Assembly: GCA_011364925.1 (NCBI GenBank) | Contig: RDOA01000016.1 | Location: 1-64,000 of the forward strand | Direction of reading: 5' to 3' | Source of the DNA: Promethearchaeota archaeon | GTDB lineage: Archaea > Asgardarchaeota > Lokiarchaeia > Sigyniarchaeales > SOKP01 | Length of the DNA stretch: 64,000 nucleotides | Part shown: in pieces, positions 2,596-11,992 of the stretch | Numbering within the stretch: the stretch's first letter is position 1 | How the letters are laid out: each line of letters opens with the position of its first letter | Notes under the pieces: generated by a model | What the model was told of the DNA's origin: nothing | The model's input: the letters and a program-made list of their open reading frames with translations, nothing else | The model's database searches: none | Made by a program: the position numbers and the translations under genes

Positions 2596-2640
2596 AATGT
2601 AAAATAAAAAACAAAATTATATGCTAATATAATTAGCATA
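2596..2640 (-). terminator. Hairpin terminator after the AOR gene
   Basis: A perfect inverted repeat with 9-base arms (2620-2628 and 2632-2640, TATGCTAAT / ATTAGCATA) and a 3-base loop begins five bases after the AOR stop codon. On the minus strand it is followed by a T-rich tract (about 2598-2619). This layout looks like a stem-loop plus U-tract terminator and would end the AOR operon transcript before the AAA gene. T-tracts alone can terminate archaeal RNA polymerase; the hairpin may also protect the 3' end. Confidence 0.65.
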
Positions 2641-2644
2641 GATA

Positions 2645-4561
2645 TTATTCGATTAAACGACCTGCTTGTGCTAGTTTTTCAGCTATGTCATTTAACCTTA
2701 GATTTTCTAGGGTTTCACGTGTTTGCCATCCAGTTTCCTTATCCCATCCATGGAGATCATAGAATTTATCTAACATTAAATTATATTTATCCAGATCTAA
2801 TTTCTCACCTTTATGGGGTCCAGACTGAATTGGATCTTCAAAAAATCTTCGATGCGGTAAATCGTCTTTCCGCGTGAATCCTACATGTAGTGTATTAAAC
2901 GCTTTTTCTATGTTATACGATTTTTGTCCAAGCAGCATAAATTCTTCTTCGTTTAAATTAGTTCCAATCGCTAAGTTAGTTAAATCAACGTAATCAGAAG
3001 GTTCAAGCGCATACACTCCAGACCATGTTCCCACGTACACGCATATTCCTATGATATCTTCTATTTCTTTTGAACGCAGCTCCCAAAACACCATTGGTGG
3101 CTGGTCTTCGTAAGAAAAAGGATTAAATTTAGCCCCTTTTGGTCCAAATGCTATAGGTAAATTAAGACTTCCTCTCATATGACGTCCAGCAACAGGGGAT
3201 GTCGCACAGGCAAGAGACCATCCTTTTGCCAATCTGTAAGGATCAAGAGTATCTTGATATTTTTGGTGGATAGCAAATTGTTCTGAACCTTTTCCGAGTT
3301 TTTTTGCTGCTTCGACTACGCCATCAGCAAGATAATCGCCGAAACCCTTTCGGAAAGCGATTTTTTCTTGTAATTCCATCATTGCCTCTGTATTTCCCCA
3401 ATTTAATTCTAGACCATCTGTATCTCCTTTCGTTAATAGACCCTTCTCATATGCCTCAAATGACCATGACATCACAACAGAAGAATCATCTCCGTCCAAA
3501 CCTAATTCATTGGCATGGAGGTGGTATTTTAACGAAGCTTCTGGATCGGTTACATCCATTTTGCCCGACCACATTACGGAATTTATCCAATATCCTAAAC
3601 CCTTAGCACCTTTATATTTGCCCTCGTTGATTTCTGAAAATGGTTGACACCCTACCGGGCAAGCGTAACACGCTTGAATTTTTTTGAAGTGCTTTCCTAC
3701 ACCTTCTTTTCCCATCATCCTCGATCTTTTTTCACGAGACCAATGGACATCTTGGGAATTTCTAACGGTGTGCATCATCTCCCAAAGCTCGTCAAATTGC
3801 TCAGAATCATTATAAACTAAACCTCCAAGAGTTTTCTTTCTGAACAATTTAGCTGTGGGTCGACTCATAATTTTTTGATACGCTTCATATGCTCTTTCAA
3901 CGAATTTTTCTGGAAACGCAACTTTAATCTCCTTATGACCTCTTACTGCGATTGCTTTTATTTTCTTATCTCCCATAACGCAACCAACACCTGAACCACC
4001 AGCAGCTCGACCACAATCAATAATGATAGAAGATCCACGCACAAGATTCTCTCCCGCGGGTCCTATTGATGCAACTTCAAGCTTATTATCTTTTAATTCG
4101 TTTTTGAGCATCTCTTCTGTTTCATAAGTAGTCTTATTCCATAAATGCCCTGCATCGCGAATTTCTGCTTTTCCATCTTCGATATAGAGATAAACAGGTT
4201 TTTTTGCCTTCCCACTAATAATGATTTGATCAAAGCCAGCGAATTTTACCTCAGGACTGAAATGACCTCCAAAATTGGAGGACCCTTTACCGTTATTGAA
4301 AACATTTAAAGTATCAATATTCATTCGGTTTGCGGGAAGAATTGTTCCTACTAGAACTCCTGCCCCAAATATCAAATAATTCTCTGGATCATCCCATTTT
4401 ACACCAGGCGCTACTTCGTTGAGAAGAATCCAACTGCTTATTGCTCTACCCCCAATCCATTTTTCAGCATATACATTATCTTCCACTTTAATAGTGTCAT
4501 TGTTTAAATTAACTCTAAGTATTTTTCCAGTGATTCCACCTCGAATATTAAATGTACTCAC
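2645..4561 (-). CDS. aor: Aldehyde ferredoxin oxidoreductase (tungstopterin enzyme)
   Basis: This 638-residue protein matches AOR along its length (the Pyrococcus enzyme is ~605). It shows ITGKILRVNL at the N-terminus, a GRAAGGSGVGCVMGDKKIKA pterin-binding segment, the 4Fe-4S motif CYACPVGC (C-x2-C-x3-C) and a distal fourth Cys in GICVYVG. AOR oxidises aldehydes, or reduces acids, with ferredoxin in the cytoplasm, using a tungsten bis-pterin cofactor. I place the start at the GTG at 4561: GGAGGG lies about ten bases upstream and only one base separates it from the preceding stop, implying translational coupling with the dicluster ferredoxin. The longer frame to 4594 would overlap that gene. 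The substrate cannot be read from sequence. Last gene of the operon. Confidence 0.92.
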   Translation of the reverse strand: MSTFNIRGGITGKILRVNLNNDTIKVEDNVYAEKWIGGRAISSWILLNEVAPGVKWDDPENYLIFGAGVLVGTILPANRMNIDTLNVFNNGKGSSNFGGHFSPEVKFAGFDQIIISGKAKKPVYLYIEDGKAEIRDAGHLWNKTTYETEEMLKNELKDNKLEVASIGPAGENLVRGSSIIIDCGRAAGGSGVGCVMGDKKIKAIAVRGHKEIKVAFPEKFVERAYEAYQKIMSRPTAKLFRKKTLGGLVYNDSEQFDELWEMMHTVRNSQDVHWSREKRSRMMGKEGVGKHFKKIQACYACPVGCQPFSEINEGKYKGAKGLGYWINSVMWSGKMDVTDPEASLKYHLHANELGLDGDDSSVVMSWSFEAYEKGLLTKGDTDGLELNWGNTEAMMELQEKIAFRKGFGDYLADGVVEAAKKLGKGSEQFAIHQKYQDTLDPYRLAKGWSLACATSPVAGRHMRGSLNLPIAFGPKGAKFNPFSYEDQPPMVFWELRSKEIEDIIGICVYVGTWSGVYALEPSDYVDLTNLAIGTNLNEEEFMLLGQKSYNIEKAFNTLHVGFTRKDDLPHRRFFEDPIQSGPHKGEKLDLDKYNLMLDKFYDLHGWDKETGWQTRETLENLRLNDIAEKLAQAGRLIE

Positions 4562-4562
4562 T

Positions 4563-4826
4563 TTATTCTTCACCCTCCTCAATTGTAATAGCATTATAAA
4601 AACAAAATTTCACGCATAATGGTTGTTCTTCCCCTTGACAATTATCGCAAGTATCGTTCAAAGTCCAGCGCCAGATCCCATTAATGTGATCTCTCTCAAC
4701 GGAAATACTCGACACTGAAGGTTGAAAAGATTTGGTGTGGTGAAAAGAACATATCAATTCACAAGTTTTACACGCATAACACTTCTCAAGAGAATGCTTA
4801 ATTTTAAATGTACTCATACTTGTCAT
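4563..4826 (-). CDS. Dicluster [4Fe-4S] ferredoxin-like AOR partner
   Basis: This 87-residue protein has eight cysteines in two groups: CYACKTCELIC (C-x2-C-x2-C-x3-C) and CDNCQGEEQPLCVKFC (C-x2-C-x7-C-x3-C). That fits a small two-cluster protein of the type found beside AOR-family enzymes such as BamB-like oxidoreductases. It is probably the electron-transfer subunit or partner of the AOR encoded one base downstream. A second possible start at 4817 gives MSTFKIK, notably like the AOR start VSTFNIR; the two N-termini may come from a local duplication or simply reflect similar leader sequence. Confidence 0.8.
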   Translation of the reverse strand: MTSMSTFKIKHSLEKCYACKTCELICSFHHTKSFQPSVSSISVERDHINGIWRWTLNDTCDNCQGEEQPLCVKFCFYNAITIEEGEE

Positions 4827-4885
4827 CTTTATTTCTACAATCTTAACATTTAATTTTTTTAATATTTTAATTTTTTAACAAAAAT

Positions 4886-5635
4886 TTAGGTAATAGTAGA
4901 AGATCTTACGACTCTCTTTTTTTCGGTTAATTTTTCTGAGATCTCTACAATTTTTTTCACTCTATTAATTTCCAAAACTCCGTTCCTTCTATCAGATTCG
5001 CTACACACGGCACCTCTAAATCCAATAATATCTGTTCCTAAATTATAAAGCGTACTTATATCGCTTGGTTTAATCGATCCAGCTAAAGCCGCTAACAATT
5101 TAAATTTATGCGCTTTATTAACGAACTTACTCAATTGCTCAGAATCGATAAAGTCAAACAATTTTCGACCATCTTTTATATAGGTATCTAACATTGCTAC
5201 ATCGGCTTCAGCTGAATTACATATTTCTGGAATATCCATGGGGTTGATACCGTTAAAAATCTTGGAATCTGCATACCCTGCTCCAACAACAATTATATTT
5301 TGGTCAACATTTTTTGTTGCTTTAACTACGCTTTTTAAAAGTTTTACTCCATCTTTGATCGAGTTAGGACCGAGTAGTCCTACTTTTACGATATCAGCAC
5401 CACATATTGCAGCCCCAGAAGAAGCAAGAGCTGCTGTACCAGGTAAATTCGGCATATCTCCAATAGCAACGCTTAGAGTAAAATTACTACTATAATTTCT
5501 GATTTCTTTAATTAGCCACGGAAAGGCAGCACCAAGTGAACCTTCATTTGGATTTTTTAAATCGATTATATCAGCTCCTCCTTCAATAGCAGGTAGCAAC
5601 TCCTCAAAGGAACGGATACTAATCAAAACTTTCAA
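4886..5635 (-). CDS. mfnB: (5-formylfuran-3-yl)methyl phosphate synthase (MfnB, methanofuran biosynthesis)
   Basis: The 249-residue TIM-barrel protein carries the family hallmarks: GGADIIDLKNPNEGSLGA near residue 20, SVAIGDMPNLPGT, ADIVKVGLLG, MLDTYIKDGRKLFDF with a candidate catalytic Lys, LAALAGSI, and GFRGAVCSESDR. MfnB condenses two glyceraldehyde-3-phosphates to form the furan phosphate of methanofuran, the C1 carrier of the archaeal Wood-Ljungdahl pathway. Its presence suggests that this organism makes a methanofuran-type cofactor. It sits between the HdrD-like gene (40 bp upstream) and the dicluster ferredoxin, tying the operon to C1 or ferredoxin metabolism. Assignment is strong by motif; the pathway role here is inferred. 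Confidence 0.88.
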   Translation of the reverse strand: MKVLISIRSFEELLPAIEGGADIIDLKNPNEGSLGAAFPWLIKEIRNYSSNFTLSVAIGDMPNLPGTAALASSGAAICGADIVKVGLLGPNSIKDGVKLLKSVVKATKNVDQNIIVVGAGYADSKIFNGINPMDIPEICNSAEADVAMLDTYIKDGRKLFDFIDSEQLSKFVNKAHKFKLLAALAGSIKPSDISTLYNLGTDIIGFRGAVCSESDRRNGVLEINRVKKIVEISEKLTEKKRVVRSSTIT

Positions 5636-5675
5636 AACTTCTTAACTCCTTCAATTAAAAAAAAAAATAAAAATT

Positions 5676-6746
5676 TTAATGAGATGGAATACCAATCGCT
5701 GCGCCACCTACAGGTAATTCTTCTCCTAACGCTTTTTGCACCAGCATAATTACATGATACGGCTCCATCCCAAAATCTTTTTTGGAAGGTTGTCTCATGA
5801 CAGCAGCACAGATAGGACAGAAGAAAATATAAGCTTCTGCACCTGCATCTTTAGCATCTTGTAAATTGGTATGAACCAAACCCATTGCTCGTTCACGTTG
5901 AGTTGGAAATATTCCAGAACTGCAACACATCGAATTCTCTCTTTCATATTTACGCTTTACAAGTTCTACTCCTAGTAGATCAAAGATTTCTTCGATCCAG
6001 TCATAGATCGTCTCATCCAAAGAACCATGCGGGTTGTACCTTGAAGTACAAGGGCGTTGATATGCCACTTTAAAATTTAGCGGTGTTATCTCGTCTTTAT
6101 GCTCTCGCAACCAATTTCGAATGTATTCAATATAATGAACTGGCTTAAATGGAACTTCAATATTCTGAGATAACGCTTCGGCAGTTAATAAACCATAGCA
6201 AGCATCATGGTAAAAAATTATTTCTTTATAACCTGTTTCAGCTAAATTCTTTACCAAAGTAGGAAGATACTTGAATGGAGGATCTCGTTCTCCCATATGA
6301 GTAGCACCCATTCGACAACAATACGATCCACCCATTATTATCGTTAATCCTTCAAATAATTTTCCTGTGAAAATCTTATCCCAAGGAAGGACATCCATAA
6401 ATCCTCCTAATGAGATTGCTACTTTATCATGATCTCCTTTGATAATTCGATCTTCTTTTGTAGCCCATCCTCTAGCAGTTGTTTTAGCTTTATCAGGGTA
6501 TATATACAATCCAGTTTTTTGCTGCATAAAATTAATTAACTCCCATGGATTTGCCCCGGTTGGACAAAACTCGTTACAAGCATAGCAAGTTACACATTTG
6601 GAGAGTATATCTGCTGGTTCTTGACGAATTAACTTAGTAATATCATCCTTTGCCTGTTTTTCGTCGTAATCAACGAAAAGACATTTCGATAAGCATTCAC
6701 CTTTGCATTTAGAAAAATCACACCTTCTTAAATCAAATTGTGCCAT
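5676..6746 (-). CDS. HdrD-like iron-sulfur oxidoreductase (HdrC+HdrB fusion type)
   Basis: The N-terminal ~90 residues hold two cysteine sets: CDFSKCKGECLSKC (variant spacing) and CVTCYACNEFCPTG (canonical C-x2-C-x2-C-x3-CP). The rest is an HdrB-like part with two CCG domains: a degenerate first one around GGSYCCRMGATH and a full second one (RPC ... NSMCCSSG ... FFCPICAAV, spacing C-x~40-CC-x~36-CxxC). Such proteins reduce disulfides or act as electron relays in HdrD, GlpC or LutA-type systems. The start at 6746 (MAQFDLRR) is preferred over the longer, lysine-rich frame to 6791. It lies 49 bp downstream of a ferredoxin, its likely electron partner. The substrate is unknown; no heterodisulfide is implied. 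Confidence 0.82.
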   Translation of the reverse strand: MAQFDLRRCDFSKCKGECLSKCLFVDYDEKQAKDDITKLIRQEPADILSKCVTCYACNEFCPTGANPWELINFMQQKTGLYIYPDKAKTTARGWATKEDRIIKGDHDKVAISLGGFMDVLPWDKIFTGKLFEGLTIIMGGSYCCRMGATHMGERDPPFKYLPTLVKNLAETGYKEIIFYHDACYGLLTAEALSQNIEVPFKPVHYIEYIRNWLREHKDEITPLNFKVAYQRPCTSRYNPHGSLDETIYDWIEEIFDLLGVELVKRKYERENSMCCSSGIFPTQRERAMGLVHTNLQDAKDAGAEAYIFFCPICAAVMRQPSKKDFGMEPYHVIMLVQKALGEELPVGGAAIGIPSH

Positions 6747-6795
6747 TTTTACGATTCTCTTTTTTTTAGTTCGAATATATATATTTTTCAAAACT

Positions 6796-7110
6796 TTATT
6801 GGAAAGGTTTTTTTGTCTTATATCTGGTCATAGCTTGGTCCACATAAGCTGTCATTTGGACAGCTGAGCTTTGACAAGCCTCTGCACATTTTGCACAACC
6901 AATACAATATTCCGGAGCATCTAACCAAGCACGAGGGACTTTTTCGTCGAGTCCAAACAATACAATACCGCCTTGTGGACAAGCTTTAACACAATCGCCA
7001 CAACCATCACACATAAAAGGCATAAACCAGGGCATTTGTTTTGGAGGCTTTTTAGGTTTCTTTGGAATTTTCTTTGCTTTCTTTTCTTCTTCGTTTTTAG
7101 TTTCAGTCAT
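6796..7110 (-). CDS. 2[4Fe-4S] ferredoxin with lysine-rich N-terminus
   Basis: The 104-residue protein has two classical motifs, CDGCGDCVKACP and CIGCAKCAEAC, each C-x2-C-x2-C-x3-C; only the first ends in the usual proline. The first ~22 residues are unusually rich in Lys, Glu and Pro and may form a flexible docking tail. It probably carries electrons between AOR, the HdrD-like protein and the cellular ferredoxin pool. The gaps of 99 bp to the flavoprotein gene upstream and 49 bp to the HdrD-like gene downstream fit one operon. Confidence 0.85.
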   Translation of the reverse strand: MTETKNEEEKKAKKIPKKPKKPPKQMPWFMPFMCDGCGDCVKACPQGGIVLFGLDEKVPRAWLDAPEYCIGCAKCAEACQSSAVQMTAYVDQAMTRYKTKKPFQ

Positions 7111-7209
7111 TTTCTTTCTATTGTCCTTTCAATTATTTTATCCAATAAAATTTCAAGTTTAAACTTATACTAATTTCAAAAAAAAAATTATGTTTAATTA
7201 TTTTATATT

Positions 7210-7626
7210 TTATTTTGGAAGATCGGTCCAAAGACCGTGTTCCCATTCTTCACATTCTTGAGCAGGTTTGAGATCAAGTCTTGTTCCTGCATAGCATCCC
7301 GGTTTAGTACAATAAAGTTCAGACAATTTTACTGTTAGGTTATAAATGTCTCCTTCTTTATTCACAGTTCCTTTACCTTTGAATTGATAACAAGCACGTA
7401 TACCTCCCGCTCGGGATACTCCAAACGCAACCCAAGGATTTTCAGATAATGCAGATTCAATAACTGAATATTCATCCCGAGATAACGCAAAAACTACTTC
7501 ATCATCTGAAACCGACTTTACATTTCTTGCAACGGTAACGAATGGGACTCCCGATTTACTTGCCACATTTAAGTGGCAACCAATTTTTACCCAAGATTTC
7601 ATCCTATCAGTTAGTTTTACAGTCAT
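7210..7626 (-). CDS. Pyridoxamine-phosphate-oxidase-like FMN split-barrel protein
   Basis: The 138-residue sequence has a split-barrel flavoprotein pattern: a start resembling the next gene upstream (VKLTDRMKSWV versus VKLTNEMKEGL), GVPFVTVARN, the strand pattern DDEVVFALSRDEY, and NPWVAFGVSR. This fold binds FMN, F420 or haem in many small archaeal redox proteins. Two extra cysteine pairs in the last third (CTKPGC, and C in AQECEEW) could bind metal. It is 12 bp downstream of a paralogue, so the pair probably arose by duplication. The exact reaction is unknown. Confidence 0.7.
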   Translation of the reverse strand: MTVKLTDRMKSWVKIGCHLNVASKSGVPFVTVARNVKSVSDDEVVFALSRDEYSVIESALSENPWVAFGVSRAGGIRACYQFKGKGTVNKEGDIYNLTVKLSELYCTKPGCYAGTRLDLKPAQECEEWEHGLWTDLPK

Positions 7627-7638
7627 TTTTTATCCCTC

Positions 7639-8124
7639 CTATTGTAATTTCTCACCTACTTTTCCTTTTTCAATAGAATAAATCTCTTCTACATGTAAGA
7701 CTACGACTCCACGCTGAGCTGGTACAGAATAAACGACATCTGGAGGAACCTCGTCTGGAGGTTCTTTTTGATGCCAGTCACCCCACTCATCTAAGATTTC
7801 CTTAGTTGTTACACCATACCAATCAAAGTCTGGGGGAAAACCATATTCAAAATCAATCGCTTTACCTTTAAAGACCCAATCTCTTCCAGAATCCAATGGA
7901 TGACAAATTGCTATAATGCATTCAGGATTCTCTTTAAGATTCGTTTTGGTTTTAAGTAAAAACATATCTGAAATCAGGATTTTGTCGTCTTTATATGTAT
8001 CTACGTAACGCATTGCAGCAATATTTGGTTTACCATCAGCTGACGAGGTTGCTAAATAAACCAAACTGCCCCCTTTACCCGGAACGCGCAATCCTTCCTT
8101 CATTTCATTTGTTAATTTTACCAT
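7639..8124 (-). CDS. FMN-binding split-barrel protein (pyridoxamine 5'-phosphate oxidase family)
   Basis: This is the first gene of the seven-gene minus-strand operon. The 161-residue protein shows SLVYLATSSADGKPNIAAMR, a textbook PNPOx-family strand and FMN-phosphate region, then DDKILISDMFLLKTKTNLKENP. An inserted acidic and proline-rich loop (around residues 95-135, with PPDFDWYG and EPPDEVPP) is unusual for the family. It may be a flavin electron carrier for AOR or the HdrD-like protein; that is inference from the operon. A TATA-rich leader upstream fits a promoter. Confidence 0.78.
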   Translation of the reverse strand: MVKLTNEMKEGLRVPGKGGSLVYLATSSADGKPNIAAMRYVDTYKDDKILISDMFLLKTKTNLKENPECIIAICHPLDSGRDWVFKGKAIDFEYGFPPDFDWYGVTTKEILDEWGDWHQKEPPDEVPPDVVYSVPAQRGVVVLHVEEIYSIEKGKVGEKLQ

Positions 8125-8475
8125 TTTTTTATCTCCTTTTTTGATATAGATATATATTTGATATAAAAAATATTAAATTAATATTCAAAATTTTTTATAT
8201 GAGTTAATCTATTTTTTCTTTTTTATAAATGTTTCTGTATGACTAATGATTCAGAGCTGAAAATTAAGGTAAAAAGAAAAATAAATTCTCTTCAATCTAT
8301 ATCCAAAAACTTTAATTTAAACACTTTTTTTATATAGTAAGAACTTTACTTTGGATGCTTGGATCTATCTAATATAAACAGACATTTTTTTAAATGAAAT
8401 TCCAATATTCTAATTAATTACTGTAGAGTGCTAAAGTTAATAAAAAAAAAGAAATTCTTTGGTAGTGCATTAAGA
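8125..8475. promoter_or_regulatory. Divergent AT-rich intergenic region
   Basis: About 350 bases separate the AOR-operon start from the histidine kinase gene on the other strand. The sequence is very AT-rich. On the minus-strand side there is a repeated TATA-like stretch around 8145-8200, a plausible operon promoter. I see no gene, RNA fold or strong operator in it. The kinase frame can be extended back to a GTG at 8428, so the right-hand end may be coding. Confidence 0.4.
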
Positions 8476-10767
8476 ATGAATGAAATTTATGAAATTTTAT
8501 TTATTTCTAATTCTAAAGACGGAGAATCTCCAGTATTGCAAAAATTAAAAGAACAAAACTTTAGGGTACAATTAGAGTCCTTCGAGAATCAAATTAATTT
8601 ATGCTCAGTTGTAACTAGAGGAACAAGGGATCTTATTTTATCTGATTATGAGTCATGGGCACAAACAGGATTGGAAATATTAAGAATGATTAAAGAAAGA
8701 GATTTAATGGTTCCTTATGTTGTTATAGGTAAGGAATTAGACGAACAAGCAATGATTTCCCTAATAGAAACTGGTGTAAGTGATTATATTGAAGAATGTA
8801 ATCTGCATCATTTGATCCCTACAATTAAACGAGAGATAAGAAATTCTCTTACCGTAAAAAAACTTAAAAATATAAATTTTTCTCAATGTTTAACTGAAGA
8901 GAAATTCCAAACATTACTCAATATTTCGAAATTTATGATTTATACCTTAGATTTAAACACGGATCTTGTTGATATTAATAATGCTTTTAATGAGTTTTCA
9001 GGTTATGATAAGGATGAAATCCTGGATTCATCAAACATTTATGAATTCATCCATCCTAATGATAAAAAGATTCTTATCAATGGAATTCAAAAAGTTATGG
9101 ATGGTATGTTTGTTAATAATATTGAATTTAGGTTCAAAAGGAAGAATGGATCTTACATGCTATTATCTTCGAATCTAGCACCAATTTTTGATAATCAAAA
9201 TGAAATGATTGGTATCCTTTTTGTTTCCGAAGATTTGACGAAAAGTAAGGAAATCGAACAGTCTATTGAAGATCATATCCATAGACAAGCTTTAATTGCA
9301 CAATTTGGTTTGGAAACTATTACTGAAAAAGAAATCGATAATGTATTTATAAAAGCAACAACTTTACTCGCAAAAATACTGGATGTTGAATATACAAAAG
9401 TGCTTGAAATTCTTCCTGATAAAAAATTTTTGAAATTACGAGCTGGAGTTGGTTGGCATGAGGGATTGGTTGGAAACGCTACTGTTGAAAACAATAAAAA
9501 TTCACAAGCTGGTTTTACATTACTAACTACTGCTCCGGTAATCGTGGAAAACCTAAAAACTGAAACAAGGTTTTGTGCTCCAAAACTTCTCGCGGATCAC
9601 GATGTTATCAGTGGAATGAGTGTTATAATTCAGGGAAAAAATAACCCCTTCGGTATTTTAGGAATTCACACAAAAAAACATAGGATATTTTCTAAAGATG
9701 ATATTAACTTCTTACAATCTGTCGCGAATGTTCTTGCAGGAGTTATTGTTCGTGATTCCACTGAGAAAGATTTAAGAGAAAGTGAAGAAAAGTATCGAAT
9801 GTTGACAGAACAATCATTATTAGGAACAATTATCATATCCAATGGACAAATTATTTTTGCAAACAAAGGTATTTCTAACATTTTAGGATTTTCAATAAAT
9901 GAACTCCTCTCATGGGATATTAACACCATAAACCAGCATATTCATCCAGAAAATAGACAAATAATAATTGAAAATTATAATAAAATTTTAAATGAAGAAA
10001 TATCCTCGTTTCAATCCGAAATTCAAATGAAAAAAAAAAATAACAAATATCTGTATATTCAGCAGTATTCAAAAAGAATCCCGTTCCAAGGAAGTTCTGC
10101 CTTATTTATAAATATAATCGATATTGATAAACAGAAAAATAACGAATCATTGCTAGAATCTTCGCTAGCTGAAAAAGAAATACTCTTGAAAGAAATTCAC
10201 CATAGAGTAAAGAACAATTTGCAAATCATTTCAAGTTTAATTGTTTTACAAGAGCAATATGTAACAGATGACAGAATTCTTCATATTTTCAAGGATTTCC
10301 AAAATCGCATCAAAGTCATGGCATTAATACACCAAACATTATATAACTCCGAAAATTTAAACAAGATCCACCTCTCAAAATATATAAAAAACCTTGTTGA
10401 CAATCTTTTTAAAGTATATTCAGCAAGTTTTAAACAGATTAAGTTAGAATTGGATATCGAAGATGTTGATTTCAATTTAGACAATGCTAATGCTTGCGGT
10501 TTAATTATAAATGAACTTGTATCTAACTCGTTGAAACACGCATTTTCTCGAGATGATAAAGGGAAAATTATTGTTACTTTGAAAAAAACTGGAGAAGAGA
10601 AAATCTTATTGGATGTTTATGATAATGGGAGAGGTTTTCCTGAAGACTTAGATTATAAGAATTCAGATTCATTAGGATTAAAACTTATAACAACCATAAC
10701 CAAACAGATGAATGGGAAAATTTCCATTGAAAGAAATAAAGGAACTCATGTTAAAATCACGTGGTAA
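8476..10767 (+). CDS. Soluble multi-domain histidine kinase (receiver-like, PAS, GAF, PAS, HisKA_2, HATPase)
   Basis: Domain order by eye: a receiver-like module (~1-130, with LILSDYE and no clear conserved Lys), PAS (~145-265), GAF (~275-430), PAS (~445-560), HisKA_2 with the phospho-acceptor motif EIHHRVKNNLQIISSL (His at about 575), and HATPase with N box INELVSNSLKHAF and G box DNGRGFPED. No membrane segment is visible, so it senses cytoplasmic signals. The HisKA_2 type is common in archaea and alphaproteobacteria. The start is set at the ATG at 8476; a GTG at 8428 adds 16 basic residues. The receiver-ArsR gene begins 11 bp after its stop and is the obvious partner. Confidence 0.88.
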   Translation: MNEIYEILFISNSKDGESPVLQKLKEQNFRVQLESFENQINLCSVVTRGTRDLILSDYESWAQTGLEILRMIKERDLMVPYVVIGKELDEQAMISLIETGVSDYIEECNLHHLIPTIKREIRNSLTVKKLKNINFSQCLTEEKFQTLLNISKFMIYTLDLNTDLVDINNAFNEFSGYDKDEILDSSNIYEFIHPNDKKILINGIQKVMDGMFVNNIEFRFKRKNGSYMLLSSNLAPIFDNQNEMIGILFVSEDLTKSKEIEQSIEDHIHRQALIAQFGLETITEKEIDNVFIKATTLLAKILDVEYTKVLEILPDKKFLKLRAGVGWHEGLVGNATVENNKNSQAGFTLLTTAPVIVENLKTETRFCAPKLLADHDVISGMSVIIQGKNNPFGILGIHTKKHRIFSKDDINFLQSVANVLAGVIVRDSTEKDLRESEEKYRMLTEQSLLGTIIISNGQIIFANKGISNILGFSINELLSWDINTINQHIHPENRQIIIENYNKILNEEISSFQSEIQMKKKNNKYLYIQQYSKRIPFQGSSALFINIIDIDKQKNNESLLESSLAEKEILLKEIHHRVKNNLQIISSLIVLQEQYVTDDRILHIFKDFQNRIKVMALIHQTLYNSENLNKIHLSKYIKNLVDNLFKVYSASFKQIKLELDIEDVDFNLDNANACGLIINELVSNSLKHAFSRDDKGKIIVTLKKTGEEKILLDVYDNGRGFPEDLDYKNSDSLGLKLITTITKQMNGKISIERNKGTHVKITW

Positions 10768-10778
10768 GCAAAAGTAAA

Positions 10779-11603
10779 ATGGCACAATTAAAAGTCATGA
10801 TTGTAGAAGATGAGTTAATAACCGCTGAGGCTATAGCAATTCTTTTAAAAAAATTAAATTATGAACCTGTTGCTATCGTTTCTTCTGGAGAGGAGGCAAT
10901 TTCCAAACTCCAAAATTTAAATCTTGATTTGGTATTAATGGATATTATTCTTGCAGGAGCTATGGATGGAATTGAGACTGCGCAAATCATTAATGAAAAC
11001 TACAGCGTTCCCGTTATATTTATAACTGCTTATGGAGATAAAAATACCTTGGATCGAGCGAAAATTTCAGAACCTTATGGATATATCGTAAAGCCTATAA
11101 CAAATGAAGATGAACTTCTACCTCCAATAGAACTTGCTATGTATAATCATCAAGTAAAGAATAAGCTTAAAGAGGATCATGAAAAATTTGAGCAAATTAA
11201 GCAACTGGTTCAACCAGATGGTTTGATTTTACCTCCCAGAGTTATAGAATCTCCAGAAGAGGGAACTCCTCTCGAACGAGTAGCTAAAAATGTAGATCCT
11301 ATGCTTGAAATAGAAATCTCAGGCACAAGAATTAATTTAGTTGAATGGTTAAAATCGTTCTCAAATCCTGATCGATTTTTAATATTAGAGCTAATAAAAT
11401 CTCAACCTTTAAAATTAGACGAAATACAAACCTTTATCGGGAAATCTCAATCCACGACTTCACACCATATTAAGAGATTAGAAAAAACTGGATTTATTAA
11501 GGGTTGGAAGCGTGGAAAATATATATATTATTCATTAGATAAACAATATATGACGGAATTTGTGAATCTGTGGGAGAATTGGATTATAAGGCTCTCCTCG
11601 TAA
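10779..11603 (+). CDS. Response regulator: receiver domain plus ArsR-type winged helix
   Basis: Residues 1-125 form a receiver domain with the acidic pair VEDE, phospho-acceptor Asp55 (LMDII), Thr in ITAYG and Lys in VKPI. A linker of ~60 residues leads to an ArsR-like winged helix (SFSNPDRFLILELI, recognition helix QSTTSHHIKRLEKTGFI). DNA-binding response regulators are rare in archaea, so this pair may control transcription directly. A GTG at 10761 overlaps the kinase stop, but the ATG at 10779 gives a normal receiver start. The next gene encodes a paralogue of the DNA-binding half. Confidence 0.88.
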   Translation: MAQLKVMIVEDELITAEAIAILLKKLNYEPVAIVSSGEEAISKLQNLNLDLVLMDIILAGAMDGIETAQIINENYSVPVIFITAYGDKNTLDRAKISEPYGYIVKPITNEDELLPPIELAMYNHQVKNKLKEDHEKFEQIKQLVQPDGLILPPRVIESPEEGTPLERVAKNVDPMLEIEISGTRINLVEWLKSFSNPDRFLILELIKSQPLKLDEIQTFIGKSQSTTSHHIKRLEKTGFIKGWKRGKYIYYSLDKQYMTEFVNLWENWIIRLSS

Positions 11604-11644
11604 ATAAGTAATAAATAATAGAAATTAGAAATAAGAATTAAATC

Positions 11645-11992
11645 ATGAACAAATCAACAGAAAAGAAAATTAATAATATAATAAAAAATTTCAACGAAAA
11701 TCAATCGTATAAACTTTTACGAGAATCTATGGAAATTATAGGTAATGAAGAACGGTTTTTAATTCTCAATTTGTTAAAGGAGAAACCATGTCTACTCTCT
11801 GATATTGAACAAAGGATGAATAGAAATCAACCATCGATCTCTCATCATATCAGAATTTTAGAAGATCATGGATTTATTCACAGTTCAAAGGTAGGCAAAT
11901 TCAAAGAATACTCCATTTCCAAAGAAAAGTTTGGAGAATTATTAAAAGTCTGGAATCAATGGTTCAATATAATTCGATCCAAGAAATATTAA
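11645..11992 (+). CDS. ArsR-type winged-helix regulator (receiver-less paralogue)
   Basis: The 115-residue protein matches the C-terminal half of the preceding response regulator: NEERFLILNLLKEKP against NPDRFLILELIKSQP, PSISHHIRILEDHGFI against STTSHHIKRLEKTGFI, and LLKVWNQWF against FVNLWENWI. It lacks a receiver and any metal-binding cysteine signature of classical ArsR sensors. It is 41 bp downstream and probably co-transcribed. It may share operators or dimerise with the response regulator, which would make it a constitutive competitor; that is inference. Confidence 0.82.
   Translation: MNKSTEKKINNIIKNFNENQSYKLLRESMEIIGNEERFLILNLLKEKPCLLSDIEQRMNRNQPSISHHIRILEDHGFIHSSKVGKFKEYSISKEKFGELLKVWNQWFNIIRSKKY

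Follow-up and report, generated by a model that had tools for sequence, protein, structure and literature searches.

A conserved Lokiarchaeia redox operon joining a non-canonical tungsten-family oxidoreductase, an HdrD-like protein and a second MfnB

Genes of the locus and their conservation

The analysed DNA (the window) is a stretch of 64,000 nucleotides from a Promethearchaeota archaeon (GenBank assembly GCA_011364925.1, contig RDOA01000016.1, positions 1 to 64,000); it is contig C23 of genome G000, which measures 3.9 Mb and is 100% complete. Open reading frames (ORFs) and family matches define seven minus-strand genes running from 8124 to 2645 in the order FMN1, FMN2, Fd1, HdrD-like, MfnB, Fd2 and AOR, with successive gaps of 12, 99, 4, 40, 59 and 1 bp. 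The MfnB and AOR-family proteins are termed MfnB2 and WorL below. An earlier sequence-only reading had given the same ORFs, order, strand and families, and all of these stand, including its two FMN split-barrel proteins, FMN1 being assigned by Pfam and FMN2 by AlphaFold and Foldseek. The operon and the features next to it are:

7639..8124, minus strand: FMN1, first gene of the operon, PNPOx-type FMN split-barrel protein of 161 amino acids (PF01243 above cutoff)
7210..7626, minus strand: FMN2, diverged FMN split-barrel protein of 138 amino acids (AlphaFold and Foldseek)
6796..7110, minus strand: Fd1, ferredoxin of 104 amino acids with two [4Fe-4S] motifs (Fer4_9, E 3e-13)
5676..6791, minus strand: HdrD-like protein with two N-terminal [4Fe-4S] motifs and one complete CCG motif (PF02754)
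4886..5635, minus strand: MfnB2, second 4-HFC-P synthase paralogue (PF04476, E 1.5e-73)
4563..4826, minus strand: Fd2, two-cluster, WorS-like small subunit of 87 amino acids (Fer4_9 weak; eight cluster-type cysteines)
2645..4561, minus strand: WorL, AOR-family large subunit with a non-canonical active site (PF01314 and PF02730)
2619..2640, minus strand: A+T-rich hairpin followed by a T-rich stretch, possible terminator (folding, z -1.3)
8428..10767, plus strand: divergent PAS/GAF histidine kinase (Pfam)
10761..11603, plus strand: response regulator with an ArsR-type helix-turn-helix (HTH) domain (Pfam)
11645..11992, plus strand: ArsR-type HTH protein of 115 amino acids (PF01022)

The most likely start of the AOR gene is the GTG at 4561, one bp past the Fd2 stop; the listed ORF extends to 4594, and several orthologs carry a stop codon between that upstream start and 4561. 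Alignment places the start of the HdrD-like gene probably at about 6746.

The HdrD-like protein led to nine homologous contigs (L046-L054; L046 begins inside FMN2, so that its 5' end is cut). All nine belong to Lokiarchaeia and have the seven genes in this order, separated by short gaps. The sequence-only reading had named a synteny search for AOR, HdrD and MfnB as a check; the order is present in these relatives, and the linkage of the three genes is real and conserved in Lokiarchaeia. AOR orthologs (80-88% identity) were found in 11 of 228 Asgard genomes. FMN1 occurs in ten of the 228, all of them operon carriers, and is absent from non-carriers; the eleventh carrier, G152, has a contig with the same coordinates as the truncated L046.

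Usable pairwise estimates, read in frame, gave dN/dS of about 0.05-0.25 for all seven genes (one value, for AOR in L052, was excluded as an upstream-stop artefact). The values for WorL were 0.05-0.07 in three comparisons, and it is therefore not a decayed enzyme. MfnB2 had the highest values of the seven genes (0.16-0.25).

The divergent PAS/GAF kinase, the response regulator and the ArsR-type HTH gene are kept with the operon in every locus that reaches that far, and genes flanking the operon and this regulator unit differ between loci. The regulators at 8428-11992 had been overlooked before, and the conserved unit is larger than seven genes. Between the kinase and FMN1 (8125-8430 in the window), most loci have a CTCATATAAAAAATTTTGA-like block of partial conservation, which is a possible archaeal promoter or operator. 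A hairpin terminator had also been proposed after AOR: a stem of 9 bp, rich in A+T and ahead of a T-rich stretch, is there, but its folding is not unusual against shuffled sequences, and a terminator role is plausible. Further downstream (1040-2497) the window encodes a single-ATPase CDC48-like AAA protein, seen in the window and in none of the relatives examined.

Active site of WorL

WorL carries both AFOR domains and the AOR fold that mark the AOR/WOR family. Its AlphaFold model (pLDDT 90) matched Pyrococcus AOR (1aor) with TM 0.90 and BamB with TM 0.83 in Foldseek. In the alignment with Pyrococcus AOR the [4Fe-4S] ligands are kept (C288, C291 and C295 in a Cys-x2-Cys-x3-Cys motif, and the distal C494), and His448 is retained. 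The protein presumably contains tungsten; Arg76 and Asn93 of the predicted pterin/Mg region are also kept.

Residues Thr243, Glu311, Tyr312, Glu313 and Tyr427 have been tied to aldehyde oxidation, and Thr243, Glu313, Tyr427 and His448 are conserved in most aldehyde-oxidising WOR members (PMC12096430, PMC13328260). The substitutions T243L, E311W, Y312I, E313N and Y427D are identical in 11 of 11 aligned operon orthologs of WorL. Of the aldehyde-oxidising set (PfAOR numbering) His448 alone is kept, both in these orthologs and in a homolog from genome G060, described below. All 15 other AORs of the WorL genome retain Thr243, Glu313 and His448. The AOR identity given by the sequence-only reading holds for the family and fold, but aldehyde oxidation is doubtful with five of these residues replaced in every operon ortholog.

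The genome G000 has 16 AOR-family genes, several with 16-Cys WorS-like partners. One of them, L068 (C33:4475-5599), is closely related to Pyrococcus WOR5/ASOR (715 bits). This paralogue has EGKYAGAVCDNPDYELEAFLG where the operon WorL has EGKYKGAKGLGYWINSVMWSG, ungapped, and the Glu-to-Asn change is therefore independent of gap placement.

In BamB and YdhV the second shell is missing and Cys322 is a metal ligand (PMC12096430, PMC13328260). WorL has no Cys at this position (segment GYWINSVMW), which rules it out as a BamB member. Because the aldehyde-oxidation residues are lost, Cys322 is absent and the fold is nearer to AOR, we file WorL as a WOR-family protein that is neither an aldehyde oxidase nor a BamB. 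Judged from its residues, the reaction of WorL probably differs from aldehyde oxidation.

In the tree the WorL clade is supported at 100/100 and sits on a long stem (0.87). The sole further protein seen with the new residue pattern is the G060 homolog, 62% identical and from another Asgard family, which shares L243, W311, N313 and D427 with WorL and has V at position 312; it is adjoined by a two-cluster Fd2. A DUF2119 and an ATP-grasp gene also adjoin it (L128 2415-4291). This pair was considered as a link to MfnD and dropped, there being no MfnD match among the 25 families listed.

Redox partners, MfnB2 and one-carbon genes

Fd2 (84-92 amino acids, eight cluster-type cysteines) aligns at 32-41% identity with the 16-Cys WorS-like proteins that partner other AORs and has half their size; it is not the four-cluster WorS of Class II WOR. 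The WorABC module of Class IV WOR is absent from the operon. On our reading the operon therefore lies outside the published WOR classes II-V.

The invariant cysteines of the HdrD-like protein are C24/29/33/37, C66/69/72/76, C248, C289, C290, C325 and C328. It has one complete CCG motif; the N-terminal CCG keeps only C159 and C198 invariant, and the protein is not a two-CCG HdrD or HdrB. Relatives elsewhere in Asgard genomes (41-45%) sit in different gene contexts. The operon gene itself occurs in two types, those of the window, L046 and L047 being 90-92% alike and those of L048-L054 71-73%. The AOR genes group differently (88-89% for AOR of L051, 72% for its HdrD), and this discordance looks like single-gene replacement within the operon. 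The AlphaFold model of FMN2 is a split barrel (pLDDT 86) with Foldseek matches to HupZ, PNPOx-like proteins and flavin reductases at E 7e-6 and weaker. FMN2 has no Pfam match, and profiles of FMN1 and FMN2 found no convincing sequence match in PDB.

MfnB2 matches MJ1099 over its full length (E 5.5e-69) and keeps the DxKNP, KVG and LDT..K motifs, the last segment fitting the published catalytic Lys155; with PF04476 and these lysine motifs it belongs to the MfnB family. With 286 bits it stays under the 341-bit NCBIfam equivalog cutoff, and the other of the two MfnB proteins of this genome also scores below that cutoff. In the tree the operon MfnB2 forms a 100/100 clade separate from other MfnB copies. 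All tested operon genomes at least 88% complete carry both copies, and G150 (76% complete) has the operon copy only. The clade also includes non-operon genes that are the only MfnB found in G018 (C135, L071), G020 (C79, L072) and G036 (C24, L073), which suggests that they replaced the usual MfnB there. Since G020 (99% complete) and G036 (94%) have Ftr, members of the MfnB2 clade can probably serve methanofuran synthesis.

The other MfnB of G000 was considered as part of a methanofuran/H4MPT cluster, and this was dropped: neither MfnE nor beta-RFAP synthase adjoins it in L070, where it stands among genes for ProC, pantoate kinase, UMP kinase, an ADH-synthase-type aldolase and a HisA/F-like protein. 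MfnE did not reach the curated cutoff in G000 or in any related genome.

About 225 bp past the end of the operon, and on its strand, G028 and G139 carry HdrB, HdrA, MvhD, ferredoxins, FwdD, FwdB and FwdC, with FwdA/FwdB copies also close by. The arrangement HdrBA-MvhD-FwdDBC, accompanied by FwdA and another FwdB/FwdD set, occurs in their genus (g6; L155 827-12878, L156, L179) with or without the operon upstream. Found in two closely related genomes only, the adjacency is suggestive. The claim of the sequence-only reading that the operon is linked to methanofuran synthesis is borne out in part: the motifs are intact, the clade supplies the sole MfnB of two Ftr genomes and the operon stands beside Fwd in two genomes, but the operon MfnB is a second paralogue.

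Proposed function and comparison with known systems

We tentatively propose that the operon encodes a low-potential redox module under two-component regulation, with a non-canonical tungsten oxidoreductase at its centre and possibly a furan or C1-methanofuran compound as substrate. This oxidoreductase would be WorL, its active site being no longer suited to aldehyde oxidation. Fd2, as a two-cluster version of WorS, would carry electrons between WorL and Fd1 together with the HdrD-like protein. The latter, with its two cubane-type motifs and one CCG site, could exchange electrons with a thiol/disulfide or another two-electron partner, and the two FMN split-barrel proteins may be flavin carriers or reductases. 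Complex formation, the direction of electron flow and the furan substrate are what we infer; the flow from AOR to HdrD-like chemistry suggested in the sequence-only reading would be one such direction.

This proposal is supported by the strict synteny in nine contigs and the restriction of FMN1 to operon carriers, and by features of WorL: the substitutions common to all 11 orthologs and mostly found in the G060 homolog, the retained His448, Arg76, Asn93 and Fe-S cysteines, the well-supported, long-stemmed clade and the low dN/dS. The retention of MfnB2 in the operon with intact motifs, despite another MfnB, also favours it, and the product of MfnB is a furan aldehyde (PMC11365854). BamB provides a precedent, being a member without the second-shell residues that performs aromatic-ring chemistry with HdrA/B/C-like partners (PMC12096430, PMC13328260). 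Several points weigh against the proposal. Loss of second-shell residues alone is no proof of lost aldehyde activity; by dN/dS, MfnB2 is under less constraint than the redox genes; and nothing ties the MfnB2 product directly to WorL. The G060 contig begins 167 bp before Fd2, leaving any MfnB linkage unreadable there, and the one MfnB of G060 is on a separate contig that has no Fd2-AOR genes. A bolder form, which we regard as unlikely, is a new tungsten-family reaction: WorL, without the aldehyde-oxidase second shell or the BamB Cys and wired to the HdrD-like protein and flavoproteins, would act on a furan from its dedicated MfnB and yield a furan-derived metabolite or cofactor new to archaea.

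Support of C1/methanofuran metabolism is a possible, if doubtful, alternative. MfnB2 would be an extra co-regulated supply of furan rings for formylmethanofuran dehydrogenase, and WorL and the HdrD-like protein would do separate low-potential electron work in the same pathway, for example towards Hdr-Fwd. The Ftr-containing G020 and G036, with MfnB2-clade genes as their sole MfnB, and the Hdr-Fwd genes after the operon in G028 and G139 are consistent with it. However, G036, of the same genus as the latter two, has the Hdr-Fwd cluster without the operon, other carriers have different downstream genes, the window contains no match to the Hdr and Fwd genes of G139, and another MfnB is already present in most carriers.

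Ordinary aldehyde:ferredoxin oxidoreductase activity feeding an HdrD-like acceptor, as the sequence-only reading had it, appears improbable. The fold, the retained cofactor and Fe-S residues and the adjoining HdrD-like and ferredoxin genes all suit it, but the five replaced residues are those that reviews tie to this reaction (PMC12096430, PMC13328260), and Thr243 and Glu313 persist in all 15 further AORs of the genome. It is very unlikely that WorL is a low-potential reductase of the BamB kind, acting on an aromatic thioester or a comparable ring compound, and that the HdrD-like protein takes the BamD/E role: a non-canonical active site with HdrD-like and ferredoxin partners recalls the Bam complex (PMC13328260), and BamB is among the Foldseek matches, but the Cys322 equivalent and genes for WorABC/BamGHI or HdrA-like proteins are absent, and WorL is closer to AOR than to BamB in fold and sequence. 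Least probable is a module for redox sensing or protection: the PAS/GAF kinase would sense an electrophile, the tungsten enzyme and flavoproteins would detoxify it, and MfnB2 would remove excess triose phosphate. The conserved kinase and response regulator and the patchy distribution (11 of 228 genomes) speak for it; no particular electrophile is indicated, however, and measured MfnB is slow at moderate temperature, with kcat of about 1-3 per minute at 25-45 C (PMC11365854).

According to a 2026 classification, no tungsten oxidoreductase other than benzoyl-CoA reductase is known to have an activity that is not linked to aldehydes, although the same text describes a sulfonate-oxidising member. 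Our literature search, covering few subscription papers, found nothing joining AOR with 4HFCP and, by title, nothing on HdrD, tungsten and aldehyde in such an operon. A conserved WorL clade under purifying selection, which combines a third kind of active site with a constant operon setting beside an HdrD-like protein and a furan synthase, offers a concrete target in the search for further non-aldehyde chemistry, and it is found in the archaea closest to eukaryotes. Asgard genes annotated as AOR should have their active site inspected before they are counted as aldehyde oxidases.

Among known systems, Class II WOR (WorLS: PfASOR/WOR5, CbGOR) likewise has a WorL large subunit with an adjoining Fe-S small-subunit gene. 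The operon differs in its small subunit of two clusters instead of four, in the lost second-shell catalytic residues of WorL and in the added HdrD-like protein, two FMN proteins, extra ferredoxin and MfnB. Class II benzoyl-CoA reductase BamBCDEFGHI (Class IV WOR) resembles it in having a WorL without aldehyde-oxidation residues beside Hdr-like electron-transfer proteins (HdrA/B/C-like in Bam), but the operon has no Cys322 equivalent, BamGHI/WorABC module or HdrA-like subunit, and the fold of its WorL is closer to AOR. Canonical AOR of Pyrococcus furiosus (1aor) shares the fold, Fe-S ligands, pterin/Mg residues and His448 with WorL, in which Thr243, Glu311, Tyr312, Glu313 and Tyr427 are replaced. 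The 4-HFC-P synthase MJ1099 is matched by MfnB2 over its full length with catalytic motifs kept, and MfnB2 differs from it as a second, separate paralogue within a redox operon.

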